Of a DNA stretch of 64,000 nt, positions 11,100 to 46,960 are shown piece after piece (position 1 is the first letter of the stretch; every line of letters starts with the position of its first letter). The translations under genes were made by a program, and so were the position numbers. The notes beneath the pieces are model-generated. The model had not been told where the DNA came from. It did not search any database and saw only the letters and a program-made list of their open reading frames with translations. The DNA comes from Prevotella sp. (GTDB lineage: Bacteria > Bacteroidota > Bacteroidia > Bacteroidales > Bacteroidaceae): contig JAFTQG010000013.1 in the NCBI GenBank assembly GCA_017462915.1, positions 81,908 to 145,907 of the forward strand. The letters run 5' to 3'.

Positions 11100-11121
11100 A
11101 CCAGTAATAATACTTCCGTAA

Positions 11122-30109: not shown

Positions 30110-30128
30110 ATATCATTCAGTTCCTTTG
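30110..30128 (+). repeat. 19-bp direct repeat in the integrase leader
   Basis: ATATCATTCAGTTCCTTTG occurs here and again at 32503-32521, each upstream of an element gene. The 30 bases before it are also similar in both places. Confidence 0.75.
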
Positions 30129-30182
30129 TAGCATGGAGATAGTCTCCACCAAGTAACATTCATAAATAACAAAGAAAAGACT

Positions 30183-31307: not shown

Positions 31308-31340
31308 CGTCATTCTATCGTTTTTGCTGTCTTACAAGCG

Positions 31341-31378
31341 ATTGGAGTATGATTTTGAGTATGAAATCATACTCCAAT
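31341..31378 (+). terminator. Strong hairpin after the integrase gene
   Basis: A perfect 15-bp stem, ATTGGAGTATGATTT with AAATCATACTCCAAT, around an 8-base loop, 33 bases after the integrase stop. The following bases are AT-rich but not a clean T-run, so it may act as terminator or as a protein-binding dyad. Confidence 0.5.
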
Positions 31379-31502
31379 ATTAATTTGTCATAAATTGCTG
31401 CGTTTATCTGCGACTATTTTCGCATATACCCAAACCTCCATAGTAACTTTGCTGTAAATAACCGTCAACAAGACATAATATCGAACAATAAAATTATAGA
31501 AC

Positions 31503-32279
31503 ATGAGAAATTTGACTACGATTATCAGCAAAGAGACATGCCTTTTCTATGGTCTTCCCGGCACAGCTATCCTTGCCGTGTCACTTATCCTGTCCTGCAA
31601 AGTCGGCAATGACTTTGCAGGGAGCACGTTTGTAAACACAGTTTCTTTCTTTGGCAGCAATGTCCTGTTATGGCTGTTGTATCTGGTATTGTTCCAGTAC
31701 CTGCCTGTTGACTTGATGAGGATTTGGCTGTCAAGGAAGAATCTCGTTAGCATTAAAGCAACAAAAAACAATGCGGATATAGGAACCGTTGCCACTCCTG
31801 TCAGCATCGTTCATCCTATGACCGCCGAAGAATACAAAGCCCACTGTGCCGAGTTTGAGCGCAAAAAGCAGGAGGAACACCAAAAACTTGTCAAGCCTAT
31901 CATAGATTATGTAGGCAGGGTGATGTCACCATTCATGGAGGAAGCAGAACTTGACCTTCTCCGCAATGAGATTCAGGCATGGTGTGATAATCCGAATCAT
32001 AAGCCCAAACCTGTCAAGTTAAAAACGGTTCATGACTATAAGGACAAACTGAAGACTGTCTCTTTCAAGCATTTCATCTGGAATATAGCTGCAAGGCTTG
32101 GATTTGGGAATGGATATTCCGGGAAGATACAGGCCGATTTCATCAAGTCATTGTTCCCAAATGAATTGAAAGATGTAGAATCCAAATCATTGGAAAGAAG
32201 TCTGACAAATTCACCTGATGACGGTCACATAAAACTTGACAGGCCCAAGCATACAGACAATTATATTTTCCACTTTTAA
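31503..32279 (+). CDS. Element-encoded membrane protein, unknown function
   Basis: 258 residues. Two membrane segments lie near the N-terminus (about 17-32, GTAILAVSLILSC; about 46-70, FFGSNVLLWLLYLVLFQYL); the remainder is hydrophilic and charged, probably cytoplasmic, with a Glu/Lys-rich helix around 110-130. No family was recognised. A -7 box (TAACTTTG, 31444-31451) lies 51 bases upstream. Its place between the integrase and the second HTH gene suggests an accessory role in the life cycle of the element, but nothing in the sequence says which. A terminator follows at 32313-32340. Confidence 0.6.
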   Translation: MRNLTTIISKETCLFYGLPGTAILAVSLILSCKVGNDFAGSTFVNTVSFFGSNVLLWLLYLVLFQYLPVDLMRIWLSRKNLVSIKATKNNADIGTVATPVSIVHPMTAEEYKAHCAEFERKKQEEHQKLVKPIIDYVGRVMSPFMEEAELDLLRNEIQAWCDNPNHKPKPVKLKTVHDYKDKLKTVSFKHFIWNIAARLGFGNGYSGKIQADFIKSLFPNELKDVESKSLERSLTNSPDDGHIKLDRPKHTDNYIFHF

Positions 32280-32312
32280 CTACAACCGTCTTATTCTAAC
32301 AACTATAATGCA

Positions 32313-32340
32313 GGGAGGCTCTTACGGGCTTCCCTTTTTG
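32313..32340 (+). terminator. Terminator after the membrane protein gene
   Basis: GGGAGGC and GCTTCCC pair across a short loop, followed by TTTTTG. Confidence 0.7.
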
Positions 32341-32502
32341 TTATATGTCATAGTATTCTGTGTTGCTTATTGGTTGCAATACAGCACCTGCTTATATTTC
32401 CTTATTCCCTACTTTTTCCCCTTCTTTTTACGCCCTATTCCTTGATAGTACAGTTTTCTCAGGATTATCTGCCGATTATCATCAATAATCTGTATCACAG
32501 GT

Positions 32503-32521
32503 ATATCATTCAGTTCCTTTG
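32503..32521 (+). repeat. 19-bp direct repeat upstream of the second HTH gene
   Basis: Identical to 30110-30128 (ATATCATTCAGTTCCTTTG). It ends 22 bases before the start codon and contains TTCCTTTG, a near match to a -7 box. Confidence 0.75.
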
Positions 32522-32543
32522 CCGCAACTTAATTTTCAAAAGT

Positions 32544-32915
32544 ATGACAAACGAACTTACATTCAACGACCTCCCGCAGGTCGTGGCCGAGCTTCGGGAT
32601 GAGGTAATCGGCATGAGGCAGATGCTCACCAGTCTGCAAAAGGAGAAAGGACAACGCAAAGAGAACACCCACCGCCCAATGTCGGTGGAGGAAGCAGCGG
32701 AATATCTGAAGATACCGTTGCGCACCCTTTATATGAAACTGGGTAACGGCACCATTCCTGCCACAAAGCCAGGCAAGCGGTATGTCCTTTATCAAGATGA
32801 ACTTGACAAATGGCTGGAGTGCAACCGCAAGAATCCCGTTCCTCTGACCGATGAGGAACAGAACGCAGCCATTCTTGCTGCCAATAGACGCAAGCCCAAC
32901 AAAAGGACATGGTAG
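32544..32915 (+). CDS. Excisionase-type helix-turn-helix protein
   Basis: 123 residues from ATG 32544; the open frame runs further upstream but that part is hydrophobic nonsense over the leader. Residues 20-45 look coiled-coil (VVAELRDEVIGMRQMLTSLQ). Residues 48-100 are an HTH_17 domain (MSVEEAAEYLKIPLRTLYMKLGNGTIPATKPGKR), the fold of phage excisionases and of small DNA-binding proteins next to plasmid and element replication genes. The next gene starts at or just after its stop codon, so the two are co-translated. Confidence 0.8.
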   Translation: MTNELTFNDLPQVVAELRDEVIGMRQMLTSLQKEKGQRKENTHRPMSVEEAAEYLKIPLRTLYMKLGNGTIPATKPGKRYVLYQDELDKWLECNRKNPVPLTDEEQNAAILAANRRKPNKRTW

Positions 32916-32917
32916 TT

Positions 32918-33955
32918 ATGGAGAATGTTGACGAGAATAACATCAAAGGTAAGGTTTCCTCTACACAACAGCCTTTCAATGTGATAGCCGCCATCGGTGC
33001 GGAACTGGAGTGTCAAAGGCAAAAGGCGAAGAACGTACCTGAGAGGACAGGCATGTTCACGGTCAGGACGGCAAACCGCACCATACAGGAGGCGGCAAAC
33101 CGCCCCGACCCTGTACCGCTCTGGAAATCGCTCTGGTATGAGGGAGAAGTGTGCTGCCTGTTCGCTGACAGCAATCTCGGCAAATCCATCTATGCCGTGC
33201 AGATAGCAAGCAGCATAGCCAAAAGCCGTAAAGTCCTCTATTTTGACTTTGAACTGTCCGACAAGCAGTTCCAGCTGCGCTATACTGACGAGACAACAGG
33301 CAAGTGTCACGAGTTCCCTCCCGACCTGTACCGTGTGGAGATAGCAAGGGACTATGAATATCCTGACACCAGCTTCGAGGATGCGCTTATCATGGAGATA
33401 GAGAAACTGTCTGTAGAAGCGGAATGCAAAATCCTGATAATCGACAATCTTTCCTATCTGTGCCTGACTTCAGAGAAAGGCGAGGACGCAGGAAAGCTGA
33501 TGTCAAGACTGATGGAGCTGAAACGAAAGTACGGGCTTTCGATGCTGATACTGGCTCACACACCCAAGCGTCCGCTGAACATGCCCATCACGCAGAACGA
33601 TCTTGCCGGGAGCAAGAAACTGTATAACTTCTTTGACAGCGTTTTCGCCATAGGCAAGTCCGCCAAGGATGGGAACCTCAGGTATATCAAGCAACTCAAA
33701 GTCAGATACGGGAGTTTTGAGTATGGTGCGGACAATGTAATTGTATGCTCCATTGAGAAGAATGACGACTTCCTGCAATTCGTGATAGTGGGCTATACCA
33801 CAGAAGCTGTCCACCTTAAGGAGATAACAGAGGAAGAAAGAGCCAGATTAAAGAATGAAGCCAAGGCATTACACTCGCAGGGCGTTTCATACCGTGAAAT
33901 CGGGAAACAGCTCAACATATCAAAGACCACGGCAGAAAGATACTGCAAGCCATGA
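32918..33955 (+). CDS. RepA-like AAA ATPase (replicative helicase-type)
   Basis: About 345 residues; ATG 32918 avoids overlap with the upstream gene, while ATG 32909 in the same frame would overlap it by seven bases. The RecA-like core carries a Walker A variant FADSNLGKS (86-93 counted from 32909) and Walker B ILIIDN, the AAA_25/RepA arrangement of plasmid and mobilizable element replication helicases. The C-terminus has a short HTH (SYREIGKQLNISKTTAERYC). With the adjacent primase gene it probably copies the element after excision or transfer. The GTCCC-rich segment just downstream may be its binding region. Confidence 0.8.
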   Translation: MENVDENNIKGKVSSTQQPFNVIAAIGAELECQRQKAKNVPERTGMFTVRTANRTIQEAANRPDPVPLWKSLWYEGEVCCLFADSNLGKSIYAVQIASSIAKSRKVLYFDFELSDKQFQLRYTDETTGKCHEFPPDLYRVEIARDYEYPDTSFEDALIMEIEKLSVEAECKILIIDNLSYLCLTSEKGEDAGKLMSRLMELKRKYGLSMLILAHTPKRPLNMPITQNDLAGSKKLYNFFDSVFAIGKSAKDGNLRYIKQLKVRYGSFEYGADNVIVCSIEKNDDFLQFVIVGYTTEAVHLKEITEEERARLKNEAKALHSQGVSYREIGKQLNISKTTAERYCKP

Positions 33956-33979
33956 GGAACACAACCGGAGTGCATGATG

Positions 33980-34165
33980 TTCCAAGTGTCCCACTTTTCC
34001 CCTATGGGAACATGGTACAAACAGGACTGTTCGGGACACATGGGACAGTTACTTTGTACAAACAATGCTCTATTCCAAGTGTCCCTGTGTGTCCCGTCTG
34101 TCCCACCGTCCCAGTCATCCCAGTCATCCCAGTCGTACTGGGGCACACAGGTGGGACATGGTGGA
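33980..34165. repeat. GTCCC/GGGAC-rich segment, possible iterons
   Basis: Within about 185 bases there are nine copies of GTCCC or GGGAC on the two strands. TTCCAAGTGTCCC occurs twice (near 33980 and 34073), and a 9-bp unit CCCAGTCAT is repeated in tandem around 34110-34132. The segment lies between the RepA-like ATPase and primase genes. Open frames through it are low-complexity and were not called. Confidence 0.55.
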
Positions 34166-34198
34166 CAGATGCAAGGCAATAAATAAAGTGAACCGATT

Positions 34199-35256
34199 AT
34201 GAGATATGAGCTACAGAAATACCGGACAAGGAACGACAGGCATACCTGCCCCAAATGTGGCGGTCGGCATTGCTTCACCTATTACGTGGACGAGAACGGA
34301 CAACCGCTTGACAAATCCGTGGGCAGGTGCGACCATGAGAGCGGATGCGGCTACCACTATCCACCGAAAGAGTACTTCAAAAACCATCCAGACAGGAATT
34401 TGTCTGAAACACGGCAATATCCGAACACGGTTATCAGAAAGGACACTCATAGGAACAAGTCCATTGATACCGTTCCAATGGAATATGTCAGACGCTCACG
34501 CAGTGACAACAGCCATCTGATACAATTTCTCTTTTCCCTGCAAAAGGATAATGAGGCGGATCTCAAACGTGTATTGGAAGACTACCGTATAGGAGCGACC
34601 CGGGATGGGGATATTATTTACTGGCAGATTGACAAAGATAACCGTGTGCGTGGTGGAAAGATTATCGCATATAACAAGGAAGACGGACACCGCATCAAAG
34701 ACAAGGGTGTGAACTGGGTACATTGTCTGTTGAAAAAGCAGGCAGTGTTCAATCAGGATTGGACACTCACACAATGCCTGTTCGGCGAACACCTGCTGTC
34801 GGCATCGGCAAACCGCGACAAAGTGGTGGCTGTGGTGGAATCCGAGAAGACTGCCGTTGTCTGTGCAATCCAATATCCAGACTGCGTATGGCTCGCCACA
34901 GGAGGGAAAGCCAGTTGGCTATTGACAAGATGAAGGTGCTTGCCGGGAGGACGGTCATCTTCTTCCCCGACGTGGACGGCTACCGTGATTGGACGGAACG
35001 GACAAAAGTTTTTTCCTTTTGTCGCAGTGTCACGGTTTCGGACTTCTTGGAGAGGAACGCCACAGAGGAAGACCGTGCCGCAAAGGTGGACATTGCCGAC
35101 CTCATACTCCACCAATGGAAAGAGGACAAGCAAAGGGATGAGAACCCACCTCTTGCCGCTGTGGAAAGGACACTCCGTGAGATGGTCAGACGCAATCCTG
35201 CCTTGCAGACTCTTATAGACACGCTCGGTCTTGTTCCTGTCGTGGAAGACGGATGA
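34199..35256 (+). pseudogene. Toprim/DUF6371-type primase with a one-base frameshift
   Basis: The first frame (34199-34933) encodes an N-terminal zinc finger (CPKCGGRHCF, then CDHESGCGY) and the start of a Toprim-like core (VVAVVESEKTAVVCAIQYPD). It runs into LATGGKASWLLTR and a stop. The second frame continues the protein as SQLAIDKMKVLAGRTVIFFPDVDGYRDW to 35256. Restoring one A in the run at 34907-34909 gives LATGGKSQLAIDKM, the expected family sequence and about 352 residues. So a single-base loss explains the break. It may be a true mutation or a homopolymer sequencing error. The role would be primer synthesis for element replication, alongside the RepA-like ATPase. Confidence 0.8.
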
Positions 35257-35568
35257 AGCCCGGCTTGCCGGTTATAGGGCTTGCCGCTCATATAGCCCAC
35301 TATAACTACACGCTTCGCTTCCGTAGTTGTGGGCTCTCCCGAGGGGCTGGGCGTTGCCCCGTCCCACTTATGGCTCTGCCCTAAGAACCCGGTCGGAGGC
35401 TGTCAGCCCCCAACACCCCTGACCAAAGAGTGACCCTCTCTTTGGAATCTCCGCTCAGAGGTCTCGACCCCTGAGAACCCCGAGCAGGAAGTGACCCTCT
35501 CCCTGCACCCTCCGATTAAGGCTCCGCCCTAATGACCCTTTCCCTATTGTAAATCTGTAAACATCATT
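35257..35568 (+). other. Hairpin-rich region, candidate oriT
   Basis: 312 bases without a gene, directly upstream of the relaxase. Four inverted repeats stand out: CCCAC..AACTAC with GTAGTTGTGGG; CCAAAGAG with CTCTTTGG; CTCAG with CTGAG; and GCAGG with CCTGC. The CCAAAGAG and GCAGGAAG hairpins share the same loop, TGACCCT. Relaxase genes are normally preceded by their nick site, so this is the likely transfer origin; the nick cannot be placed from sequence alone. Confidence 0.55.
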
Positions 35569-37125
35569 ATGCCTATGGCACAGAAGACATCAATCAACAT
35601 CAAGCCCTGCAACATCGGAAGCAGCGAGGCGCACAACAGGCGGACAGCGGAATACCTCGCCCATATCGGCAAGGATAAATTCTATGTCCGCACCGACCTT
35701 ATGTCGGCAAACGAGACATGGGTAGCACCTGATTTCGGCGGCACTTCGCTGTCGGAACGCTACAATCAGATAGCCGCGATGGTAAAGGAGAAGACAGGTC
35801 GGGCGATGCAGACCAAAGACCGGGAGCGTGTGAATAAGAAGACGGGAAAGGTGACCGTCGTGCGCGGCAGCACTCCGCTCAAAGAGGGTGTCGTGGTAAT
35901 CAAGGATGATACCACGCTGGAGCAGTTGCAGCATTTCTGCGAGGTGTGTAAGGAGCGGTGGGGAATCACGGCTTTGCAAATCTTCATTCACCGTGACGAG
36001 GGGCATTATGGAATTCCCGGAGAGACCGCCACATGGAAGCCCAACCTTCACGCCCATATCGTATGGGACTGGATGAACCACGACACAGGAAAATCCTGCA
36101 AGCTGGACGAGAAAGCCATGAGCGACATGCAGACGCTCTTGGCTGAGTGTCTTAACATGGAGAGGGGCAACTCAAAGGAGCAGACGGGAAAGGAGCATCT
36201 TGAACGCGTCGACTTCATCATCGCCAAGCAGAAGCAGGAAGCCGAACAGGTAAAGGCGGAAAAGGAAGCAGCCGAAGCTGACAGGGATGCCGCGATCCGT
36301 GAAACGGACAATGCCAAATCCGAACATGAAAAGCTACAAATCGGGAACGAGGAGAAGCAACGGCGCAGCGAGGAACTTGACAGCGAAATCGCCGAAAAGG
36401 AGGAACGTGCGAGAGAGGTTGACAGGGAGAACTCGGACAGCATAAAGTCCGGCATCGCCAACCTTTTCGGCAAGGGCAAGTACGCAGCCATCGAGCAGGA
36501 GAATGAGAGGCTGAAAGCCGAAAACGAGCATATCAAAGAATCCTTCCCCGATGCCGTCAGGAAAGAGGTTGCGAAACGGACGAAGGCACTGACCGAGGCG
36601 AAGCGGACGGTCGAACTGGAGCGTGACAGTGCCATGGCAATCGCTGACACTTATGAATCCGAGAGGGACACGGCTCTGCGGCAGCTTCGGGAGCAGAAGA
36701 CCGGGGAGCAGCACCGCATCAGCATGGCGGTGAGCCGGGCAACGGCGGAGAAGGACAAGACCATAGAGCGGTTGCAGGGTGCGCTGAAATCGAGCCGGGA
36801 TATTTTGAATATCATCGCCGATATTCTCTACAAGGCAAGCGAGGTGTTCAGGCGAGCCATTGAAGCGATTATCCATTTCGCCACGGAGCGGCACAAGTCA
36901 ATCTTCTCTCCCTCCGAAGCCGCAGACATCAAGAGCGTGATGCAGAGCTACGGCGAGACCACCGAGCAGCAGAAAGCGGTCGGCGCATGGCTCTGTGACT
37001 ATGCGGAACACCGACAGCCCTTTGATGAAATAAAACATCGCCACACACTCAACGAGGTTGGCGATGTCGCGGAAGGTCGGTATGATTGGAAAATTGACAG
37101 AGGGCGAGGTGGAATAAGTTTGTAG
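35569..37125 (+). CDS. MobV-family relaxase
   Basis: 518 residues (a start six bases later, MAQKTS, is equally possible). Residues 1-210 are the Pre/Mob domain; the metal-binding motif is clear: HRDEGH from His141 and PNLHAHIVWDW with His161 and His163. Residues 215-430 form a long coiled coil rich in Glu and Lys, and the C-terminus is helical. It would nick the oriT upstream and lead the strand into a recipient through a conjugation pore supplied by another element. The absence of tra genes around it marks the element as mobilizable rather than self-transmissible. Confidence 0.92.
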   Translation: MPMAQKTSINIKPCNIGSSEAHNRRTAEYLAHIGKDKFYVRTDLMSANETWVAPDFGGTSLSERYNQIAAMVKEKTGRAMQTKDRERVNKKTGKVTVVRGSTPLKEGVVVIKDDTTLEQLQHFCEVCKERWGITALQIFIHRDEGHYGIPGETATWKPNLHAHIVWDWMNHDTGKSCKLDEKAMSDMQTLLAECLNMERGNSKEQTGKEHLERVDFIIAKQKQEAEQVKAEKEAAEADRDAAIRETDNAKSEHEKLQIGNEEKQRRSEELDSEIAEKEERAREVDRENSDSIKSGIANLFGKGKYAAIEQENERLKAENEHIKESFPDAVRKEVAKRTKALTEAKRTVELERDSAMAIADTYESERDTALRQLREQKTGEQHRISMAVSRATAEKDKTIERLQGALKSSRDILNIIADILYKASEVFRRAIEAIIHFATERHKSIFSPSEAADIKSVMQSYGETTEQQKAVGAWLCDYAEHRQPFDEIKHRHTLNEVGDVAEGRYDWKIDRGRGGISL

Positions 37126-37230
37126 TCCCGTTTTCAATGTTCACTGTTCCAAACAGTGTTGGAAATCGTATGTTTCGATTTTATAACAACCAACCCTTTT
37201 GACAGTTATGCATTGACTGGTTGCTTGAGG

Positions 37231-37793
37231 TTATTTTATTTTTGCCCTAATCCGGCTCAGGCTTGTTTGTGTAATACCTAAATATGTAGCTATGCTTCCG
37301 AGAGGTAAGCGTTGCAGCAAATCCGGATTATTCTTCAGCAATTCGCTGTAACGCTCCGAGGCGATGACAGAAAGCATGGAAATCAACCTTTCTTCGGCAG
37401 CAAGCAATTCCATCTCGGCATATCGCCGTCCCCAATTAGCAATATGTAAGTCCTGCAAAAATAAATCCTGTAATTTTTTCGTGATAATACATACAAGATT
37501 GAGTCTTCCATCAGCTCCATCGTCTCATATCCTGGCTCGTCGTTCACATAGCCTTTCAAGGAAACAATAGTCGCTCCCTCTTTGCCAAACCAAAAGGTAA
37601 TTTGCTTTCCGTCCACCGGAGTATATGCGCGGACAATGCCTTTCTTGATGAAAAAGATGTTCTTCTCCACCTTACCTCTTTTCAACACCTGGAATCCTTT
37701 GGGATATGAAACTTCCGTTAAGCATCGCTGCAATTTGTGCAAAGACGCATCCGGCATGGCGTATCTCTTATTAATGATTTCTTTTATATCCAT
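37231..37793 (-). pseudogene. Crp/Fnr-family regulator with a one-base frameshift
   Basis: Read on the minus strand from ATG 37793, the first frame gives a cyclic nucleotide-type effector domain (IFFIKKGIVRAYTPVDGKQITFWFGKEG) up to VLSRK. The rest, LQDLHIANWGRRYAEMELL to the HTH (LPLGSIATYLGITQTSLSRIRAK), is in another frame ending at 37231. Adding one A to the run at 37474-37479 (T on the plus strand) gives SRKKLQDLFLQDLHIANWG and restores about 188 residues. The gene is divergent from the SMR-MFS-phosphatase operon, which it probably regulates. Two direct repeats in the shared promoter region are likely operators. Confidence 0.8.
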
Positions 37794-37870
37794 ATTCTTT
37801 TTTTGCTGTATTTGGTGTGCAAAATTATAAAATTTCACACGAAAACGAAAGTGAATGGTTGTTTTTTTTG

Positions 37871-37904
37871 CAAATGCAAAATCCGTTTTTGTCAAATGCA
37901 AAAA
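37871..37904. promoter_or_regulatory. Candidate operator between the Crp-like regulator and the exporter genes
   Basis: CAAATGCAAAA occurs at 37871-37881 and 37893-37903, 22 bp apart (two helix turns, same face). A -7 box for the rightward operon, TACTTTTG, is at 37925-37932. A leftward -7 box (TAATTTTG on the minus strand) is at 37820-37827. Confidence 0.5.
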
Positions 37905-38018
37905 GCTTTTAGTTTTTTTTTGCTTACTTTTGCACCCGAATTTAAAATTATAAAATGAATTAATAAATGAAATAAGCAAATTAATTAGTAAATATAACAA
38001 ACAAATAAATTAGTAAGT

Positions 38019-38345
38019 ATGAATTGGATAATTTTATTGTTCGCAGGATTATTTGAGGTGAGCCTCACGTTCTGCTTGGGAAAAGCGAGAGCAGCATCAG
38101 AAATTTGGTTTTATCTGTGGGGGAGCGGTTTCCTTGCTTCCACCATTCTGAGCATGGCTTTGCTCGCCAAGGCGGTGCAGACTTTGCCTTTGGGCACGGC
38201 CTACGCCATCTGGACAGGCATCGGGGCAGTGGGTACGGTTTTGATAGGAATATTCGTTTTCAAGGAACCAGCCACTCCCATCAGGCTTTTCTTCCTCTTC
38301 ACGCTCATTGCTTCCTTGATTGGATTGAAGATTGTGTCATATTAA
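38019..38345 (+). CDS. SMR-family small multidrug / guanidinium exporter
   Basis: 108 residues with four membrane segments. The membrane-embedded Glu (FEVSLTFCLGKA, Glu13) that carries protons in this family is present, and GTAYAIWTGIGAVGT is the SMR signature. The TGIGAVGT version is closer to the SugE/Gdx branch (quaternary ammonium and guanidinium export) than to EmrE, but a single sequence cannot settle this. It is the first gene of an operon with an MFS exporter and a phosphatase, 18 bases between SMR and MFS. A divergent Crp-like regulator lies upstream. Confidence 0.88.
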   Translation: MNWIILLFAGLFEVSLTFCLGKARAASEIWFYLWGSGFLASTILSMALLAKAVQTLPLGTAYAIWTGIGAVGTVLIGIFVFKEPATPIRLFFLFTLIASLIGLKIVSY

Positions 38346-38363
38346 AAAAAGAGAGGCGAAAAA

Positions 38364-39557
38364 ATGAAGTATGAATTGAGAGAGAACCAAGGTATTCCGG
38401 CACCTCTGCTGGCTCTGATGGCAGTAGCTACCGGACTTTCCGTTGCCAACTGCTATTACAACCAGCCCTTGCTGGGCAGTATGGCAAAAGAGTTTGCGGT
38501 AACAGACTTTTCGGCCAGCATGGTAGCTACCTTGACCCAGATTGGATATATGGCAGGACTTCTGTTTGTCATTCCACTTGGTGACTTGCTGTCAAGAAAG
38601 AAACTTATATTGGCAAACTACATTATTTCGGCATCTGCATTGCTTTCAATAGCAGTTTCACCAAATATATATTGTATGTGGATAGCATCTTTTTTCGCAG
38701 GTGCATCGTCCGTTATGCCGCAATTCTTCATCCCTTTGGTATCATATAATTCTTCTCCCGTACACAAAGTCCGTAACGTGGGTATCATACAATCATGTCT
38801 TCTCATCGGTATCTTGGGGGCTCGTGTCGTCAGTGGATTATTGGCTGACACATATGGCTGGCGTTCTGTTTATTTCGTGGCAAGTTTCTTTATGCTTGGC
38901 TGTTTTGCAATGATTCATAGAATGTTGCCGTCATTACCGCCTCTCAAACAGGACACATATTTAAATCTTTTGAAATCATTACTGCGGTTGTTTGCAAAAT
39001 ACCCTTATCTTCGTGTCGCATCACTAAGGGCATCATTGGCATACGCTTCATTCTTTGCATTGTGGAGCTGCCTTGCATTCAGATTGAAACAGGCTCCGTT
39101 CTATGCAAGTGACAACATTATCGGCATACTCGGTCTATGCGGATTAGCGGGGGCCTCGACGGTGGTGTTCATTAGCGGCTATATCCCGAAATACGGGGTG
39201 AGATTCTTTTCAGTCATAGGAGCTTGCCTGATGTTATTGACATGGATAATTGCACTGTATGGAGATAACAGCTATTTGTGGATAATCATAGCTATTCTGT
39301 TGATTGATGCCGGGATGCAGTGTGTGCATCTGTCAAATCAAGCCAGCGTGGTTGCATTGGACGATTCAGCCATAAATAGGATAAACACAGTCTATATGAC
39401 AGTCTATTTTCTTGGCGGTTCAGTCGGGACTTTTGTCGCAGGCTTGTCTTGGGAGCATTTCAGTTGGACGGGGGTAGTATGCACGGGAATATTTTTCATA
39501 GTGGCTTCCCTCCTTGTCAATTGCTCAAAACAAAAAGTTAATCCGGCGGGAATGTAA
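38364..39557 (+). CDS. MFS exporter
   Basis: 397 residues with about 12 membrane segments and no signal peptide. The loop after segment 2, GDLLSRKK, is the MFS motif A position (G-D-x-x-x-R-K). NCYYNQPLLGSMAKEF near the N-terminus is shared with the YnfM/arabinose-efflux type of drug exporters. It follows the SMR gene by 18 bases and precedes the phosphatase gene by 30. Substrate unknown; co-transcription with an SMR exporter suggests one class of toxic small molecules. Confidence 0.85.
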   Translation: MKYELRENQGIPAPLLALMAVATGLSVANCYYNQPLLGSMAKEFAVTDFSASMVATLTQIGYMAGLLFVIPLGDLLSRKKLILANYIISASALLSIAVSPNIYCMWIASFFAGASSVMPQFFIPLVSYNSSPVHKVRNVGIIQSCLLIGILGARVVSGLLADTYGWRSVYFVASFFMLGCFAMIHRMLPSLPPLKQDTYLNLLKSLLRLFAKYPYLRVASLRASLAYASFFALWSCLAFRLKQAPFYASDNIIGILGLCGLAGASTVVFISGYIPKYGVRFFSVIGACLMLLTWIIALYGDNSYLWIIIAILLIDAGMQCVHLSNQASVVALDDSAINRINTVYMTVYFLGGSVGTFVAGLSWEHFSWTGVVCTGIFFIVASLLVNCSKQKVNPAGM

Positions 39558-39587
39558 CATATTCATTTTATAAATAAATCCGCTCCA

Positions 39588-40034
39588 ATGAAGATTGTAT
39601 TTGTGTGTACCGGTAATGCAAGCCGCTCGGCAGTTGCCGAGGTCATATTGAGAAAAATGATTCAGGAAACAAGCCTTGAAGACATTGAGATTCTATCATG
39701 TGGAACAGATGTCCCATACGGGCAAGAACGTGAAGGAATCATGTGTCAAATAGCGGCGGAGCATGGATATTCGATGGGTGGTAAGGCAGTGATGATAACT
39801 GCGGAATTGGTTAATGCAGCCGACCGAATCATTGTTATGACAAGGCAACATAAGACCGAAGTGATGCGGTTATTGGATCCATCACACTGGAATCGTATCG
39901 CATTATTCAACGACATCTGTTTCGGAGAATCTTCAGACCTCCCGGATCCTCACTATCAGTCAGCACAGGTATATTACACCTGCTTCAAAGCCATCGAAAA
40001 GGGTTGCAGGGAGATAGTCAGAAAACTGAAATAA
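39588..40034 (+). CDS. Low-molecular-weight protein tyrosine phosphatase / arsenate reductase-like
   Basis: 148 residues. The phosphate-binding loop VCTGNASRS holds the nucleophile Cys7 and Arg13 (CX5R), and the acid Asp120 lies in the conserved DLPDPHYQS. These are complete, so the enzyme should be active as a LMW-PTP. Proteins of this fold also include thioredoxin-coupled arsenate reductases, but the three extra Cys of that group are not arranged here in a convincing way. It is third in the SMR-MFS operon; its role there is unknown. The gene ends 21 bases before the stop of the hsdR remnant on the opposite strand. Confidence 0.85.
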   Translation: MKIVFVCTGNASRSAVAEVILRKMIQETSLEDIEILSCGTDVPYGQEREGIMCQIAAEHGYSMGGKAVMITAELVNAADRIIVMTRQHKTEVMRLLDPSHWNRIALFNDICFGESSDLPDPHYQSAQVYYTCFKAIEKGCREIVRKLK

Positions 40035-40054
40035 TCGAACCCTTTTCACCATCT

Positions 40055-40186
40055 TTAAGTTGTTTTCTGGGAGTTATTGTACCCGGCTTGTTTCTTGGAC
40101 TGTATATAATATTGATTTTCAGCAGTGGTAAGCAATTCCTTGACAATGATGGCTTCAAGCCCTTTCTCTGATATGTCTGTTGCCAT
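40055..40186 (-). pseudogene. Remnant of hsdR (type I restriction subunit), N-terminus only
   Basis: On the minus strand an ATG at 40186, 15 bases after the upstream gene's stop, opens a 43-codon frame starting MATDISEKGLEAIIV. This matches the N-terminus of HsdR proteins (TDxSEKGLExxI) for roughly 28 residues, then becomes unrelated and stops. A full HsdR has about 1000 residues, so the motor and nuclease domains are gone. The exporter/phosphatase cargo lies directly beyond, so the loss probably accompanied its arrival. Confidence 0.65.
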
Positions 40187-40201
40187 AAGCGTGCTCTTGT
40201 T

Positions 40202-40420
40202 TTACAATTCCTGCTTTAATTCTTCATACAAATCGACTGGTCCCAAGTGCCAGTATTTGGTGCCCTCAGACGATAGCTTCTTGTATAACTTTGAACGATA
40301 GATGCGGTTGATGGCTTCGGTGATACTGATACCTTTGTCTTCAACCATCCATTTGGTAAGCCACCCTATCTTAGATGGCAATAGCAAATACAAGTTGTCT
40401 TGTGTTATTGTTGCGCTCAT
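40202..40420 (-). CDS. Small DUF3990-associated protein
   Basis: 72 residues. It reads [20 protein letters not shown], then [20 protein letters not shown] and ETKYW-like [16 protein letters not shown]. Small proteins of this type are found next to DUF3990 genes; they resemble an antitoxin-like helical protein. Its ATG overlaps the DUF3990 stop (ATGA), so it is translationally coupled. It is third in the triad and followed by the hsdR remnant. No function is established; binding or neutralising the DUF3990 protein is the natural guess. Confidence 0.65.
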
Positions 40421-40905
40421 AATTCTACTTTTATTGATTCAATGAACTTTATGGCGGTCAACGACTTCTCTGTATGAAAAAGATATTGATCCACCAGTTT
40501 GTATGTTTTCAACTCCTGAATAAGGGTCGGCATACTGATGATGCCTCCTTCATAGAGAGTGAACTGAGTATAAACACTGTCGTCAGCCACAGGACCATAC
40601 ACGATGTCATAGTCGTGAGTAAAGCCTCGCTCTGTTCGATTCTTCATGACAAAGTTCACCCATTCCTCTGTGGGCTTCTTGAACAGGAGCACTTTCATGC
40701 TCTCCAAGGCATTGTCATCCAATTCGTACACATTCACATGCCCCACGTCCACACCTTTATCTTTTATCCTTCGCTCCACCAGCTTCTTAGCCTGTGCAAA
40801 AGATGTTGTTGTGTAGAATCCGGAACCATAGTCAAGCGAACGGTTTGGCTGCCGTATCTCCGGACTTTCAACAATCTCTATACTCCCGTGATATATCTTG
40901 CTCAT
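40417..40905 (-). CDS. DUF3990 protein, ADP-ribosyltransferase-like fold
   Basis: 162 residues. It opens with YHGS, then [23 protein letters not shown], and has [44 protein letters not shown] and [10 protein letters not shown]. These blocks define DUF3990 (PF13151), and the YHGS..GFYTT arrangement resembles the NAD-binding face of ADP-ribosyltransferases of the H-Y-E type. That enzymatic role is inferred. It starts with an ATGA overlap on the DUF3791 gene and ends with an ATGA overlap on the next small gene. Such a layout suggests a toxin flanked by two small partners, built into a restriction-modification operon. Confidence 0.8.
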
Positions 40906-41117
40906 TTCTTTCTGTTGTTAATCATTTCATCTATTTCTTCTATCAGCCAATTGTGTCCTTGGGTATGGAGTACATCATAGAACTCACAGAAGTGTTCCGT
41001 TATACCATATTGTTCAAACAGATTCACCACATCTTCTGTTGTCATGTTTTTAGCCTTAGCGTATTGTTCTATACAGAATGATACAAATTGGGCTCTTTCT
41101 TCTACTTCGCTTTTCAT
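40902..41117 (-). CDS. DUF3791 protein
   Basis: 71 residues from ATG 41117, chosen because it forms an ATGA overlap with the hsdS stop; the longer open frame reaches into hsdS. The sequence [40 protein letters not shown] and [13 protein letters not shown] is the DUF3791 (PF12668) pattern. DUF3791 proteins are commonly encoded beside DUF3990 proteins. It is probably all-helical and cytoplasmic; an antitoxin or adaptor role is inferred. Confidence 0.8.
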
Positions 41118-42394
41118 TGCGTATCTCCTTTCTGTGGCTCTGCCACACATATTTGCCCTGTCACGGCATCGCTTATTAGACGTTGCTTGAACTCTTTCAG
41201 ATAGTCTATCTCTGCCTGTAGGTCTGCCATGTATTGGTCTATCTTTGATAGTTTTGAATCTATGTACTTGACTATAGCTTGCTGCTCGGAGAGAGGGGGT
41301 AGCATAATACTATTTTTGCGCAACATATCATAATTAATGTTTTGTCCCTCTCTTATTCCCGTCACGCAAGTCTGTAAAAGGCAGATAAATGGGTGTGACT
41401 TAAAGAGGTATTTTATATAATTTGAATCAACTTCCTCTGATGGTTCTAAAATAGTATATGCCGCACTGATGATACCTTGATAATAGGCATATTCGATGCC
41501 ACCTTGAAACGACCTCAAACTGATTACGAAATCACCGACCTTCACAAGTTTCAGTCCTTCTAGTCCTTTGTTTACAACAACGACCCTGTTTTCATACATT
41601 TCTTGAGGTATGACTCCATATTTTTGTGTTGCACAAAGCACAGGCTCGTTTGGAAATCCCTTTTCAGAGCGTTCCTTGAATAAGAATTTAATTTTTCTTG
41701 TTCCCCAATGTTCTGGTATCATGCCAATCCAAGGTATGCCCGAATCTTTCATAGGAGCATTCGGATTCAGACCTTTGGTTACCACATTTGCAATCTCGGA
41801 TTGCCTTAAGCTGTCAAGCAGCTCTCTCTCTCTCTGCGCAACATATTGTTCGATTTTAGAGGTTTTTACTTTCAAATAGTCGGATATAACTAATTGCTCT
41901 CGCAATGGTGGAATAGGCAATAAAAATCTATTCAAATTATCAGATGGCAAGCGCCATCTACCTTTGTTGGACACACCTCTTCCCAAATTGTAAAATATAC
42001 GAGCTTTGTAGCACAATTGGAAGATGAAAAGGTAGAATGATTTATCAATAATCACTTTTCTCCGTGTTCTGAACGTTTTATAATCAGGACTTGTTACACC
42101 TTTTTGTGTGGAACAATCTACATATCCAGTCAATAAGTCCATCGAATTCATTACATAATCCCCTGGACAAACTATTTGATATTTTGAATAGTCGCTTGCT
42201 ATTTGTCCCTCATTGCTCTCTATGTCCTTTACTTTAAGCCCTTTTTGAGTTACAGAGAGGACATTATAGCCAAGACAATTTGCAAGATCTTTCTTAATAA
42301 GAAATATTCTTCTGAATTGCTTTATGTCCCAATGGTTTGGAATGACACCCATCCATTCGCCACAAGTATCTTTATAATCATTATATCTTTTCAT
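41114..42394 (-). CDS. hsdS: Type I restriction-modification specificity subunit
   Basis: 426 residues with two target recognition domains, each opened by the usual W-x-x-x-I-P-x-H-W motif (GEWMGVIPNHWDIKQFRRIF at about 13; GIPWIGMIPEHWGTRKIKFL at about 218) and each followed by a conserved helical spacer (LPIPPLREQLVISDYLKVKTSKIEQYV; LPPLSEQQAIVKYIDSKLSKIDQYM). It directs the methyltransferase to a bipartite DNA site. It lies 24 bases after hsdM and overlaps the DUF3791 gene by ATGA. With hsdR truncated it can still support methylation. Confidence 0.93.
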   Translation of the reverse strand: MKRYNDYKDTCGEWMGVIPNHWDIKQFRRIFLIKKDLANCLGYNVLSVTQKGLKVKDIESNEGQIASDYSKYQIVCPGDYVMNSMDLLTGYVDCSTQKGVTSPDYKTFRTRRKVIIDKSFYLFIFQLCYKARIFYNLGRGVSNKGRWRLPSDNLNRFLLPIPPLREQLVISDYLKVKTSKIEQYVAQRERELLDSLRQSEIANVVTKGLNPNAPMKDSGIPWIGMIPEHWGTRKIKFLFKERSEKGFPNEPVLCATQKYGVIPQEMYENRVVVVNKGLEGLKLVKVGDFVISLRSFQGGIEYAYYQGIISAAYTILEPSEEVDSNYIKYLFKSHPFICLLQTCVTGIREGQNINYDMLRKNSIMLPPLSEQQAIVKYIDSKLSKIDQYMADLQAEIDYLKEFKQRLISDAVTGQICVAEPQKGDTQ

Positions 42395-42418
42395 ACAGAA
42401 TAATCATGCTATCAGGAG

Positions 42419-44512
42419 TTAAACATTCAATATTTCTTCGAGTGCACCCTTCAGCCTGTTTTCAATATTTTCTATGTCTGCAGTGATTTCTGATATGGGA
42501 CGCAGTTCAACAGGTTTGTAAAAATACTTAGTGAAGGAAAGTTCGTAACCTACCACCACCTCGTCAGCATTGTAGAACGCATCGGGAGCGTATGGTAGCA
42601 CTTCGTTCTGCATAAAAGCATCGATACCGCCAGTGTATAGCAACGGAACTTGCTCCACATCCCGAAGGTAGGCATCCACTGCCACTGGACTATCCAGTTT
42701 TGTAGGCTTTATATGGCAAGCTTCTGCGTCTTCGTCGCGCTTGCCAAGATGTTTGCGGACAAGACTTATTTTAGATGCAGGTACTTTCACCTTCATCTGC
42801 TCTAACATAAGGAATAGGGCAAAGTCTCCCACAGGATGACCGCCCAGATTCTTGCGCCATGCTTCTACGACACGCTGCAACAACTGCACATCGTCCTTGT
42901 TCTTCAATTCAGGAAGTTCAATGTCCTCCAGCTTCTCGTAGGTCAAACGTAAAGGTCGTTCCACCGTCACCTTGTAATAACCGAATTCCTGATTGGGGAA
43001 TATTTTGCTCTGTTCCGTTTCTTTGAAGTCCGTTAGCATTTGAAGAATAGCCTTTCGGTCATCTTCGCTTGTTTCGCAATTTTTCTCCCCAAGGTTCTTG
43101 CGCAATGGCGTACATTGTTTGGTGGCATCTATCAGTTGCACAAGTCCCTTCCTACGTTCTTCTTTTCGATTAGTTACTACCCAAACGTATGTCCCGATAC
43201 CTGTATTATAGAAATCCTTTTCAGGCATGGCTATGATAGCTTCAAGCAAATCGTGCTCGATGATATATTTGCGCAGATTGCTTGCTCCGCTACCAGCATC
43301 ACCCGTAAACAGCGAAGAACCATTATGTACTTCAACAATTCTGGTACCCAATACCGTATCGTCAACCATACGGCTGACGTTGTTAGCAAGGAACAGCATC
43401 TGACAGTCGCTGATGTCGGGCAGGAAACATATTTCTTCCCGTTCTTCTCCGCTTCCAACTGCAATAGTAAAACGGGAATCGGTAAACTTGGCTTTCTCCG
43501 TTTCTTTCAGTCCACGTTTCTTCAAGTCCTCTTTCCACGGAGTACCAAAAGGTGGATTGGAGATACAAAAGTCGAATGTTTCGCCTGAATGACCGTCGCG
43601 TGAGATAGTAGAGTCGAATGCGATAAACTCTCTTTCTTCGCCTGCAAACGTATATTGGAATGATTTAATCTGTCCGGAAATCATCAAGTCGGCCTTGCAA
43701 GTTGCGTAAGTTTCCGGCAACAGTTCTTGTCCGTAGATATGAATGACCGCATTCTTCCCACGCTCCTTGGCAATCTGCTGAATACGTTCTTGCGCAATCG
43801 TAAGAATACCACCTGTGCCACAGGCACCATCATAGACTTTGTAGGTCGAGTCGGTGATTTTGTCCTCAATCGGGATGATGGCAAGGTCTGCAAGCAAGTG
43901 GACATAATCACGGGGTGTGAAATGTTCTCCGGCCTCGGTCACATTGTTTTCCTCATTGAACTTGCGCAGCAGTTCCTCAAACATTGTGCCTACGGTATGG
44001 TTGTCAAGGGCAGGATGCAGGACGTTCCCCTCTTCATCCAATATAGGCTTGGCACTGAGATTGATTTTATCGGACGTAAACTTTTCAATGATACTGCCCA
44101 AACGTTCCGCTTCGGTAAGGTTGTCCACGATTTGGCGCAAATGAAGTTTCTCGATAATGTCAAGCACATCCTTGCTGTAACCATTCATATACTCAATGAA
44201 GTTCATTTTCAAGCGCATCGGGTCGATTTCGCTTTTCAATGTCTTCATCGTAAATTTTGAAGTGTTGTAGAAAGGATAACCTGTTATATTGTAAAGAACA
44301 GGGGCTTGATTTTCAATGTGATTTCTGTCAAGTTGCTCTTTCATCTGCAACACCTGTTCTTTTGTCGGCTCTAACAATACGTCAATCCGTCGAAGAACCA
44401 ACATAGGCAGGATTATCTTCTTGTATTCGCCTTTGTTGAAGGCATATACAAGTACATCTGTCGCAATGTTCCATATAAATGAGAACAGTGAATTATATTG
44501 GCTTTGTTCCAT
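42419..44512 (-). CDS. hsdM: Type I restriction-modification methyltransferase subunit
   Basis: 697 residues. The helical HsdM_N domain (about 5-170) precedes an N6-adenine methyltransferase domain with the AdoMet loop YDGACGTGGIL and the catalytic NPPFGTPW (Asn319). The C-terminus is about 150 residues longer than in classical HsdM and ends in a helical segment (ISEITADIENIENRLKGALEEIL) that may contact HsdS. It is preceded 12 bases upstream by a small XRE regulator. The full operon reads xre-hsdM-hsdS-DUF3791-DUF3990-small-hsdR remnant. Confidence 0.93.
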   Translation of the reverse strand: MEQSQYNSLFSFIWNIATDVLVYAFNKGEYKKIILPMLVLRRIDVLLEPTKEQVLQMKEQLDRNHIENQAPVLYNITGYPFYNTSKFTMKTLKSEIDPMRLKMNFIEYMNGYSKDVLDIIEKLHLRQIVDNLTEAERLGSIIEKFTSDKINLSAKPILDEEGNVLHPALDNHTVGTMFEELLRKFNEENNVTEAGEHFTPRDYVHLLADLAIIPIEDKITDSTYKVYDGACGTGGILTIAQERIQQIAKERGKNAVIHIYGQELLPETYATCKADLMISGQIKSFQYTFAGEEREFIAFDSTISRDGHSGETFDFCISNPPFGTPWKEDLKKRGLKETEKAKFTDSRFTIAVGSGEEREEICFLPDISDCQMLFLANNVSRMVDDTVLGTRIVEVHNGSSLFTGDAGSGASNLRKYIIEHDLLEAIIAMPEKDFYNTGIGTYVWVVTNRKEERRKGLVQLIDATKQCTPLRKNLGEKNCETSEDDRKAILQMLTDFKETEQSKIFPNQEFGYYKVTVERPLRLTYEKLEDIELPELKNKDDVQLLQRVVEAWRKNLGGHPVGDFALFLMLEQMKVKVPASKISLVRKHLGKRDEDAEACHIKPTKLDSPVAVDAYLRDVEQVPLLYTGGIDAFMQNEVLPYAPDAFYNADEVVVGYELSFTKYFYKPVELRPISEITADIENIENRLKGALEEILNV

Positions 44513-44524
44513 GCTTTCTGTTTT

Positions 44525-44734
44525 CTAAATATTTCTCGACTCGTTCAAGAGGTCTCTCATTTCAACACCGAGGAGTTGGGCTACCTCGTGTAATGTTTGT
44601 AAATTTGGCTGGGCAGCATTGCTACACCAACGAGAAACAGTGGACTCACTGACTTGTAGTTGCGCAGCTAACCATTTTCCTGTCTTCTTTTTTAATACCA
44701 AGACCACTTTTATACGATTTAGTTCCTTGTCCAT
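44525..44734 (-). CDS. XRE-family regulator of the restriction-modification operon
   Basis: 69 residues: almost entirely an HTH_3 domain (LKKKTGKWLAAQLQVSESTV, then SRWCSNAAQPNLQTLHEVAQLLGV). Small XRE proteins are frequent first genes of restriction-modification operons, where they delay or limit expression. A -7 box (TATATTTG on the minus strand) is at 44758-44765, just upstream, with a weak TTCG 20 bases beyond. Confidence 0.85.
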   Translation of the reverse strand: MDKELNRIKVVLVLKKKTGKWLAAQLQVSESTVSRWCSNAAQPNLQTLHEVAQLLGVEMRDLLNESRNI

Positions 44735-44757
44735 ATTAAATATATTGATATTGGATG

Positions 44758-44789
44758 CAAATATATTGTTTTTAAATGAGAAAAACGAA
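44758..44789 (-). promoter_or_regulatory. Promoter of the restriction-modification operon
   Basis: On the minus strand TTCG (44786-44789), 20 bases, TATATTTG (44758-44765). The -7 box is exact, the -33 box differs by one base. From here to 45133 no gene was recognised. Confidence 0.5.
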
Positions 44790-45133
44790 TAAATATCAAG
44801 AAAACAGTTGATTTACAGTCTAATTTTAACTTCTATTCGCTTTTCATGCTGGCTTTACGCCAAAATTCCCCTAAAATAAAGATGAATAGGATTTGTATAG
44901 AATACAATATTTCTCCGTGCTATTATAACACGTATATATGTTTCAAAAATTGCCGTTAAGTTGATATATAATTATTCACATCTGCTGTATAACAGCAATA
45001 TATACCAACAGAGGTGCAACGAAGGTAAAATACAATAAATTCAACTATTATTCGTTGTATAAACAAATAGAAAGAAAGGAGCAGTCCTGACAAAGCGGCA
45101 ACTCTGTCAGTACTAAATAAAAAGACGAAAGAT

Positions 45134-45358
45134 TTAACCCTCTGGTGGGTATGGATCATTACCATAGCTATGCTTTTCACGAATACGTCCATCTAATCCG
45201 TGTATAGCGACTTCTTGACCGTTCTTAATAGCAATTTCGCGAGCACGCACAAACGCTTCTTGCTGTGTTCTGAAATTTCCAGAACTGCGTTGAGCATTTT
45301 CTTGCTTAACTTTCCATTGGTCGCCATTATGAACAACATGAATGTTCTTGCCAGCCAT
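45134..45358 (-). CDS. DUF2188 protein
   Basis: 74 residues from ATG 45358, preceded by AGGAGG at good distance; the longer open frame is not needed. The sequence NIHVVHNGDQWKVKQENAQR, then SSGNFRTQQEAFVRAREIAI and VAIHGLDGRIREKHSYGNDP, is the DUF2188 (PF09954) pattern: a small beta-alpha-beta protein often found on mobile elements. Its function is not known. Confidence 0.8.
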   Translation of the reverse strand: MAGKNIHVVHNGDQWKVKQENAQRSSGNFRTQQEAFVRAREIAIKNGQEVAIHGLDGRIREKHSYGNDPYPPEG

Positions 45359-45743
45359 ATTTACCTCCTTTCTGTTCTTAGTGGCAACATGTTTCAGGTT
45401 GCCGTTATACATACAGCTCACACTATCAGTCTATATATTGTGGGCTGTTTTTCTTTGAATTCTTATTCTCAGTGTGTCAGGGGAGAAATCTATAAAAGCC
45501 TGTGGAAGTCAGCTCTTAAATAAAAGAAATGTTATCCAATATATCATATTGCAACAAGTGTGCCAAATCTAATCGTCTGCCAAAATGTCATAACGAAAAT
45601 CTTTATTCTTATCAAGGAAAGCCAATCATAAAAAAGTAAGCTATAATCGTAGCAATAATAGCTATTAGGATTCAATTTAGAAAAGATGCAGCAAATCGGT
45701 GGACAGGCATAAACCTGATACTACAAGAAAGGGGAATTGGGGT

Positions 45744-45866
45744 ATGAAACCAATACACGTAAAGCTAATATGTGGGATGGTGTTCATGCTTGGAATGAGT
45801 TATCTTCTTCCAGAGTGGACAATTGGATTATTCTGTTCGGAGACTATATTTTATTTTAAGGCATAA
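45744..45866 (+). CDS. Possible 40-residue membrane peptide
   Basis: ATG 45744 follows a purine-rich GAAAGGGGAATTGG stretch. The 40-codon frame has a hydrophobic centre (LICGMVFMLGMSYLLP) and then WTIGLFCSETIFYF. The rest of 45359-46012 holds nothing recognisable. Too short to be sure; it may be chance. Confidence 0.25.
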   Translation: MKPIHVKLICGMVFMLGMSYLLPEWTIGLFCSETIFYFKA

Positions 45867-46012
45867 AAGCGACTTTAACTCCGAATTAGTGCAAAAATAA
45901 GCTAAAAATGTTAAATATACATATCCCTTCAATGTATCAATAAACTTCGCTCCACTTTTCTATCGTATTAACCATAAATAACTGATATTCAATAACATCT
46001 ACATACTCATAT

Positions 46013-46960
46013 TGCAGCAGCTTGACATCGGTGACGATTCCGAATAGCGTGACGATCATCGAAGATGGTACATTCAGAGGCTGTTTCAGTCTGACAGATG
46101 TTATAATTCCAAACAGCGTGATAAGGTTCGGTGAAAATGTGTTCGATTATTGCAATTTGACATCTATTACAATCCTTGCAACAGTTCCACCAACACTTAA
46201 TCAGACATTTGGCATCATGGATAAAAGTGAATGTACATTGTATGTGCCAAAAGAGTCAATTGAGCTGTACAGGACTGCAGACGAGTGGAATGAGTTTGAA
46301 AAAATGCAAGGAATTATTTCTGTCAACGGAGTGTATTATTCCGAAGACATGTCTACTTTATTGAAATACTCCGAAGATAATACTGGTAGTTTTGACGTTC
46401 CTGGTTATGTGACAAAAATCGGGAATAATGCTTTCGTAAATTGCTCTGGTCTGACAAGCGTATCTATTCCCGTCTCTGTGACAAACATAGGTCATAATGC
46501 GTTTGCCGGATGTGCTGAATTAACAGATGTCTATATCGCTACGAGACAGGACGACGGGGCACAGAGTGCTAAGAAAATGTTTGTAACGGATTATGATAAT
46601 TCTGTTATAAGCATTGGAGATTATGCTTTTAATAACTGCCCGAAACTGGCAAACATTTATTCTTTCGCGACAATTCCTCCAACAGTAGGGAACGAAGTCT
46701 TTACAAATGGACAATATGGTGCGGTGAAAGTCTATGTTCCCACAGGCTGCGTGGATACATATAAGAAGGCTAATGGATGGAGTGATTTCTATTACATATC
46801 GGAATTTAGTCCGACAGGAATAGAAAATATGACTACAGATGTAAATGGCACTGACGCAGAATATTACGACCTCAACGGAAGAAGACTGTTCAAAATGCAA
46901 CGCGGTATTAATATGGTACGTTGTGAGGATGGCAGTGTCAAGAAGGTTTTGATAAAATAA
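46013..46960 (+). pseudogene. BspA-like LRR_5 surface protein, 3' part
   Basis: Starts at the Cys codon 46013 and continues SSLTSVTIPNSVTIIEDGTF, in exact 23-residue phase with the 5' part at 28055-28750. It contains several more LRR_5 repeats and a C-terminal tail (about 35 residues) with YDLNGRRLFKMQRGINMVRC and a basic VKKVLIK end, like type IX secretion tails. There is no start codon or ribosome site of its own, so it is not expected to be made while the element is integrated. A terminator lies at 47067-47099. Confidence 0.85.

Follow-up and report, generated by a model that had tools for sequence, protein, structure and literature searches.

A conserved DUF3791-DUF3990 gene triad in a Prevotella type I restriction-modification operon is likely a toxin-antitoxin-like module and the known candidate PDC-M13

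The triad, its operon and its catalogue entry

The window is a 64,000-nucleotide stretch of the genome of a Prevotella sp. and carries a type I restriction-modification (RM) operon (Table 1). Three small genes, here called A, B and C, follow hsdS, and the sequence shows a 4-base ATGA overlap where hsdS meets A, where A meets B and where B meets C. A sequence-only reading of the window had described this trio 3' of hsdS, with every start overlapping the prior stop, and had pointed to YHGS and GFYTT in the DUF3990 protein (B). The arrangement was confirmed and both motifs were found.

The same reading placed an hsdR remnant after C. The ATG at 40186 opens approximately 19 codons that by eye resemble an HsdR start (MATDISEKGLEAIIVKELL against MPTQMNERSLEDLIVKYLT in locus L146). 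The claim is weaker than first put, as two HsdR proteins searched against the window by tblastn gave no significant match at the putative remnant. Because the frame continues into unrelated sequence after these approximately 19 codons, the operon in the window has no usable R and comprises M and S only. The PF04313 matches of the genome lie at C7 and C41 (handles unrelated to gene C), with none at the triad operon.

The operon appears to be the cargo of a mobile element that split a BspA-type gene. Two parts of this leucine-rich-repeat gene (28028-28756 and 46022-46960) flank an integrase-bearing stretch of approximately 17 kb. No direct or end repeats bounding this element were found. Upstream of the operon (45134-45421) there is a gene for a DUF2188 protein that matches another PADLOC candidate, PDC-S16 (4.8e-32).

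Table 1. Features of the operon and the surrounding element in the window; the roles given for A, B and C are predictions.
Feature	Position	Strand	Evidence and remarks
Probable integrated mobile element	28757..46018, ends approximate	.	integrase, element genes, RM operon, triad
Tyrosine integrase	30183-31307		PF00589 E 1.3e-20
HTH protein, Cro/C1-type, 69 aa	44525..44734	-	PF13443 E 6.1e-8; operon's first gene
hsdM, 697 aa	42419..44512	-	PF02384 E 9.8e-40; PADLOC MTase_I E 1.5e-214
hsdS, 426 aa	41114..42394	-	PF01420 E 6.8e-17; PADLOC Specificity_I E 1.7e-100
A: DUF3791 protein, 71 aa, predicted antitoxin 1	40902..41117	-	PF12668 E 8.7e-18; PDLC04433 E 1.9e-37 (PDC-M13A)
B: DUF3990 protein, 162 aa, predicted ADP-ribosyltransferase-type toxin	40417..40905	-	PF13151 E 3.9e-47; PDLC04438 E 8.2e-62 (PDC-M13B)
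C: 72 aa, remote A homologue, predicted antitoxin 2	40202..40420	-	PDLC04441 E 2.4e-34 (PDC-M13C)
Possible hsdR remnant, ~19 codons, 15 bases past C	40130..40186	-	by-eye likeness to HsdR starts of L146-L148

The three proteins match the PDC-M13 A, B and C models of PADLOC-DB 2.0.0 (E values in Table 1). Membership of PDC-M13 is taken here as three adjacent proteins matching these three models and was judged from the model matches; by sequence the window triad does not differ from PDC-M13 in any way. The module had been put forward as possibly undescribed, which does not hold, since it is this catalogued candidate, reportedly one of the candidate systems of Payne et al. 2024. B also matches PDC-M10A (PADLOC, 5.1e-33). 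C matched no Pfam family, and NCBIfam and PHROGs searches with A, B and C returned no result. According to the available part of PMC12988326, the PDC systems derive from a 'guilt-by-embedding' screen in defence systems and most still await validation. In rumen genomes 3,324 copies of PDC-M13 have been counted, placing it among the highly abundant candidates (PMC13356809, available in part). No experiments on PDC-M13 were found among the open-licence, non-preprint articles of PMC.

Arrangement and neighbourhood of the triad

The arrangement of the triad was compared across 100 loci, comprising the window, 80 named loci, 18 stretches from the genus and one from the window's own genome. The named loci are the best 80 of at least 560 relatives found with a profile of 20 B proteins and are thus biased towards the B of the window. 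Gene order could be read in 95 loci as ABC (48), BCA (42) or CAB (5). These are the three cyclic permutations, and the remaining three orders are absent from the 95 resolved loci. Order was unresolved in the other five, four of them at contig ends. When 98 B proteins (94 carrying an order label) are placed on a tree, at least 4 changes of gene order are required as compared to 34.8 with shuffled labels, which indicates that gene order tracks the B clades, the tree being a quick one with weak support on 40 of its 95 inner branches. Tandem remnants in L079 and L125 suggest that the permutations could arise by duplication followed by loss of an end.

The 4-base overlaps are widespread across the 100 loci and are therefore a trait of the module and not of the RM operon. 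The gap between A and B is -4 in 38 of the 57 measured, and that between B and C in 48 of 89. A 4-base overlap also joins B to upstream genes of other kinds, for example in L084. The genome of the window contains a second complete triad (L002, 591-1557) with the same ATGA overlaps. It begins 18 bases past a prmA-like gene (named by eye), and no RM gene occurs within the 2.8 kb examined.

Type I RM genes were found in three of the 100 triad loci (the window, L034 and L080) in a scan with multiple seeds and flanks whose length varies by locus. A census of 101 genomes of the genus, in which matches to A, B and C were clustered, is not selected through B and covers one genus. Its B matches that span 400 bases or more number 74, unscreened for inner stops. 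At least three of these have an hsdS gene no more than 5 kb away (the window, G001:C47, which is L034, and G095:C8), a lower bound counted among the Methylase_S matches listed. Approximately 0.4 would be expected if hsdS loci are roughly assumed to number 1.5 per 3 Mb. The best plasmid match, from Segatella copri DSM 18205 (B 80% identical), shows no RM gene in its 16-kb gene table, which is incomplete.

These counts bear on the claim of the sequence-only reading that the triad guards the modification system. In a PrrC-like arrangement of this kind, HsdM and HsdS would restrain the triad and the cell would be killed when modification fails. PrrC, which adjoins EcoprrI, is an RNA nuclease linked to its Hsd partner. 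A guard of this type fits the overlap that joins hsdS and A, the gene order of L080 (hsdS, an OLD-like ATPase, the triad and the start of HsdR) and the two further census loci less than 5 kb from a Methylase_S match. It does not fit the scarcity of RM genes beside triads, be it three of 100 loci or at least three of 74 census B with the window included, nor the RM-free triad in the same genome, the loss of hsdR from the window or the frequency of ATGA within and ahead of triads elsewhere. We consider it very improbable. The guard claim was not borne out, as RM genes are beside 3/100 triads, the same genome has a triad free of them and no usable hsdR is present. The proposed search for triads beside hsdS gave a result that, as far as RM is concerned, largely amounts to the triad being rarely near defence genes, the outcome that had been named as counting against the idea. 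An RM-specific role was rejected on three counts (3/100 loci, the second triad, at least 3/74 near hsdS), and the triad probably has no mechanistic link to methylation.

Several triads do have defence genes as neighbours. L080, from a member of the Planctomycetaceae, combines hsdS (Specificity_I 8e-59), the OLD-like ATPase (9.7e-26), the triad and the HsdR start (REase_I 1.9e-14). In Blautia caecimuris DSM 29492 (L127) a triad of order BCA lies within a BREX operon, after BrxC and PglX and before PglZ and BrxL. A ZorA-like gene lies downstream in L057, with half of the model matched (2.5e-40), and a type II methyltransferase is a neighbour in L069 (8.4e-114). The remaining immediate neighbours are mostly ordinary by eye. 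No excess of defence genes was visible in PADLOC searches of 80 upstream and 90 downstream neighbours against 127 genes at least 4 kb away; members were counted per family, the families overlap and excess was judged by inspection.

The triad also occurs on mobile DNA. B relatives are present on 74 plasmid records, 42 of them from Bacteroides, and pBF9343 carries a DUF3791 gene, a DUF3990 gene and a small unnamed gene followed by a zeta-toxin gene. Nine phage records and 33 viral contigs have B relatives as well. All three genes are present in 16 of these contigs, B alone in 11, and B with one or a doubtful partner in 6. The forms of viral B that stand alone are mostly longer and diverged, and their partners may either have escaped detection or really be lacking. 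Viral loci L219, L227, L233-L235, L238, L240 and L244 encode a longer B (~190-225 aa) with no adjoining A or C, a possible use of the enzyme by phages.

A selfish addiction module with no role in defence, whose presence in defence operons is ordinary operon hitch-hiking, would be in keeping with the ordinary neighbours, the lack of a visible PADLOC excess and the 74 plasmid records. Triads embedded in BREX (L127) and in type I RM operons (the window, L080) argue against it, as does the discovery of the PDC families through embedding in defence systems (PMC12988326, from the part available). We regard this explanation as a serious possibility that falls short of being probable.

Because relatives of the operon carry other toxin-like genes between their hsd genes, what recurs seems to be the gene slot and not the triad, and this slot is a possible site for cargo. 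Locus L147, the hsdM of which is 78% identical to that of the window over 522 residues, has a ParE-like gene (9856-10155) between hsdS and an intact hsdR, with a score of 20.2 bits that lies below the Pfam cut-off of 23. L150 encodes two Fic proteins, at 7600-8475 and 10413-11474, one in the hsdM-hsdS interval and the other in the hsdS-hsdR interval. PrrC-type systems are similar in having an extra defence or toxin-like gene among the hsd genes, and the accessible text of PMC12629846 describes second defence systems such as PrrC within type I loci. They differ from the triad, which has adjoining RM genes at only 3/100 loci.

Three other settings were noted, all named by eye. In L119 (4447-8905) a triad lies between nadB-like and nadC-nadA-like genes of NAD synthesis, which is notable for a predicted NAD-using toxin and possibly due to chance. 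A lone C gene follows an MNT-HEPN-like pair in L212 (888-1909), and a triad precedes a similar pair in L084 (10972-12261).

Loss of B and the nature of the three proteins

In the genus census the 74 clusters with a B of at least 400 bases comprise ABC (61), CAB (1), BC (6), AB (5) and B alone (1). Clusters with a shorter B (b) were AbC (7), Ab (10), bC (1) and b (4), while those without B were AC (23), A alone (13) and C alone (10). Twelve B were short of a partner (the 11 loci L194-L204, and L042). On re-inspection the missing partner was present in nine, one of which had an XRE-A fusion with a weak C, so that both partners adjoin 71 of the 74 B. The B lacking full partners are in L197 (A frameshifted), L199 (no C) and L204 (B alone). 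Two full triads are doubtful, G104:C18 with C over 43% of the model and G008:C17 with a short A and an inner stop in B. By the printed open frames G008:C17 is the only short one (56) of the 61 ABC clusters.

At thirty loci A and C both have matches while the B between them is absent or broken; one of these, L177, was excluded for a run of N inside B. In 24 of the 29 others the frames of A and C are both open over at least 60 codons, and in five (L163, L170, L171, L175 and L179) one of the partners is shortened, has no start or is truncated at a contig end. Loss or breakage of B with intact partners thus occurs at 24 loci, as against two to five the opposite way. A sign test of 24 against 2-4 gives 1e-5 to 2e-4, with loci that are not fully independent. 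Ten loci with A and a truncated B stand outside this count, among them G111:C16 and G121:C92, which are cut by contig ends.

Scars of B are legible in nine of the 23 A-C gaps read, a set that leaves out L179. Seven retain a YHG/FHG start and two an end. The 23 gaps have 21 different lengths, and losses of B within one genus share ancestry. In L156, a relative of the window triad, DNA identity is 83% for the A part and 85% for the C part taken together with the B end; all that is left of B is this end and 33 inner bases. Genes that by eye resemble a DpnII-type RM set (L249, 3187-5852) lie near the B-deleted relative of the window triad. Two marks of a toxin-antitoxin system, adjoining partners and an antitoxin that may outlive the toxin, were both found in the genus (71/74 B and 24 B-loss loci). 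Among the sequence evidence, this pattern of loss is the strongest that B would be a toxin.

A and C look like two diverged paralogues of one small antitoxin. Comparison of 97 A with 96 C proteins by hhalign gave a probability of 86 and a score of 29.7 over 55 columns, nearly the full length. Sixty column shuffles of this comparison scored 8.9 on average (SD 1.9, maximum 15.4), and hhalign of reversed C, of A against B and of C against B gave nothing. A smaller A-C test gave 45%. One C protein, from viral contig L218, exceeds the Pfam cut-off for DUF3791 (29.5 over 25 bits) and several further C proteins match the A profile. A and C are naturally fused in L155 (G015:C96), where B is gone and a single open frame of 166 codons from its start contains both.

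Fusion to an XRE-type HTH is a usual build of a self-regulating antitoxin, and a DNA-binding domain is common but not required in type II antitoxins. Such an HTH is fused to DUF3791 in L202 (885-1352), L211 (492-959) and L236 (2092-2571). L202 is the only one of these that is a full triad, while L211 has A alone and L236, a viral contig, has A and B. Pfam searches matched no DNA-binding domain in the A or C of the window.

Additional small genes accompany some triads. A fourth gene of ~102 aa (LPKG...YYYLKYRDGKKVVSKYIG) lies directly upstream of B in 11 loci (L082, L088, L090, L094, L099, L101, L104, L110, L112, L118 and L126) and overlaps it by 4 bases in eight; one member had no Pfam match. 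The viral contigs L228, L230 and L231 have a second C-like gene after A-B-C.

The B proteins were examined in a set of 96 selected by length and E-value from 103 hits. All 96 share H6, D25, G27, F30, Y31, W82, R90, G104, A107 and D109. H6 and Y31 are the conserved His and Tyr of the ADP-ribosyltransferase superfamily, in which the His belongs to motif 1 and the Tyr to motif 2. HGS and FGxGFY presumably echo the PARP signature. No invariant Glu, the third residue of the H-Y-E class, is present in the 96 proteins, and the candidates for a third catalytic residue are D109 (96/96), Q140 (95/96) and D100 (93/96). PDB sequence searches with B alone and with a B profile gave no relevant match. B is under constraint, with dN of 0.119 and a saturated dS of 2.0 against Segatella copri; dN/dS is saturated for A and for most pairs.

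Published accounts of the domain point the same way. DUF3990 is a member of Pfam's ART clan (PMC7955679, as far as the accessible text goes), and in the available part of PMC4524185 it is the sole recognised domain of the Rhs5 tip, with a predicted immunity gene adjoining. Rhs effector tips thus resemble B in having DUF3990 at the toxin end (PMC4524185, PMC10763514 and PMC12165300, each seen in excerpt), and differ in being secreted fusion proteins as opposed to free-standing genes. The same excerpts call the function of DUF3990 unknown.

The sequence-only reading had proposed an ADP-ribosyltransferase-type toxin with two partners. The invariant His and Tyr, the asymmetry of loss, the XRE-A fusions and the Rhs tip support it, and B is likely the ADP-ribosyltransferase-type toxin of the triad. 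B might instead cleave NAD or be non-enzymatic, with A and C as regulators that have a role of their own. The want of an invariant Glu among the 96 B proteins and the clusters of A alone (13) and C alone (10) would agree with this, which we judge to be quite unlikely given the invariant His and Tyr, the ART clan assignment (PMC7955679, accessible text) and the scars of B between retained A and C.

A proposed mechanism and the systems nearest to it

From these comparisons of sequence we consider it moderately probable that the triad, parked in a type I operon, is an autonomous toxin-antitoxin-like module in which two paralogous antitoxins hold a toxin of the ADP-ribosyltransferase type. B would use NAD+ to attach ADP-ribose to a component of the cell. 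A and C, the homology of which was found above, would bind B jointly as diverged copies of one antitoxin. The ATGA overlaps may serve to couple translation so that B is never made without A and C. Were A or C lost, degraded or captured, for example in phage infection, B would be freed and growth would stop. The module is found as a unit in operons that are otherwise unrelated, and here it lies in the slot between hsdS and the lost hsdR on a probable mobile element. This explanation is weakened by the 11 of 33 viral contigs in which B stands alone, by the missing invariant Glu of B, by the shared ancestry of B losses within one genus, by the five B-loss loci with a damaged partner and by the lack of a DNA-binding domain in the A of the window.

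Among known systems CmdTAC is the closest wiring model. As is proposed for the triad, an ADP-ribosyltransferase effector is restrained by two partners from one operon (PMC11618068, available in part; PMC11445053). Compared by description, CmdC is a chaperone released by a capsid protein whereas the partners in the triad are DUF3791-like paralogues. The analogy cautions that B by itself may do no harm should it require a partner to fold. In a triad wired like CmdTAC one partner would fold or activate B and the other neutralise it; B alone would seem harmless and B with one partner toxic. CmdT alone is indeed not highly toxic while CmdT with CmdA is (PMC11445053), and A and C both accompany B in the 95 of 100 loci with a resolved order. 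We nonetheless find such wiring unlikely, for A matches DUF3791 only, C matches no Pfam family, neither matches a SecB-like chaperone, and the homology between A and C is not what an antitoxin paired with a chaperone would show. Membership of CmdTAC itself was rejected because neither A nor C has a Pfam match to a SecB-like chaperone.

DarT/DarG, an ADP-ribosyltransferase toxin with a neutralising neighbour, also resembles the triad as proposed here. DarG has a macrodomain. A and C are different in that they are ~70 aa long and have no macrodomain match in Pfam, and membership of DarTG was rejected on this absence.

The autonomous toxin-antitoxin-like reading may be taken one step further. Two diverged copies of one antitoxin fold could both be required, in a cyclic order, and the A-C remnants could have been selected to protect from incoming triads or from addiction; we offer this tentatively and hold it to be rather doubtful.

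The window triad is real and conserved. It is the known candidate PDC-M13, and it is likely toxin-antitoxin-like and not a guard of RM. Relative to the literature read, the reading of A and C as twin antitoxins, the cyclic orders, the asymmetry of loss and the XRE-A fusions are new additions to its catalogue entry. The mechanism proposed for PDC-M13 is likewise new relative to the open-licence PMC literature, for an entry that already exists. The triad also cautions that function should not be inferred from embedding alone. An anonymous and abundant triad now has a concrete hypothesis, which states which protein would be the toxin, that two related proteins would hold it, and that the RM setting would be incidental.
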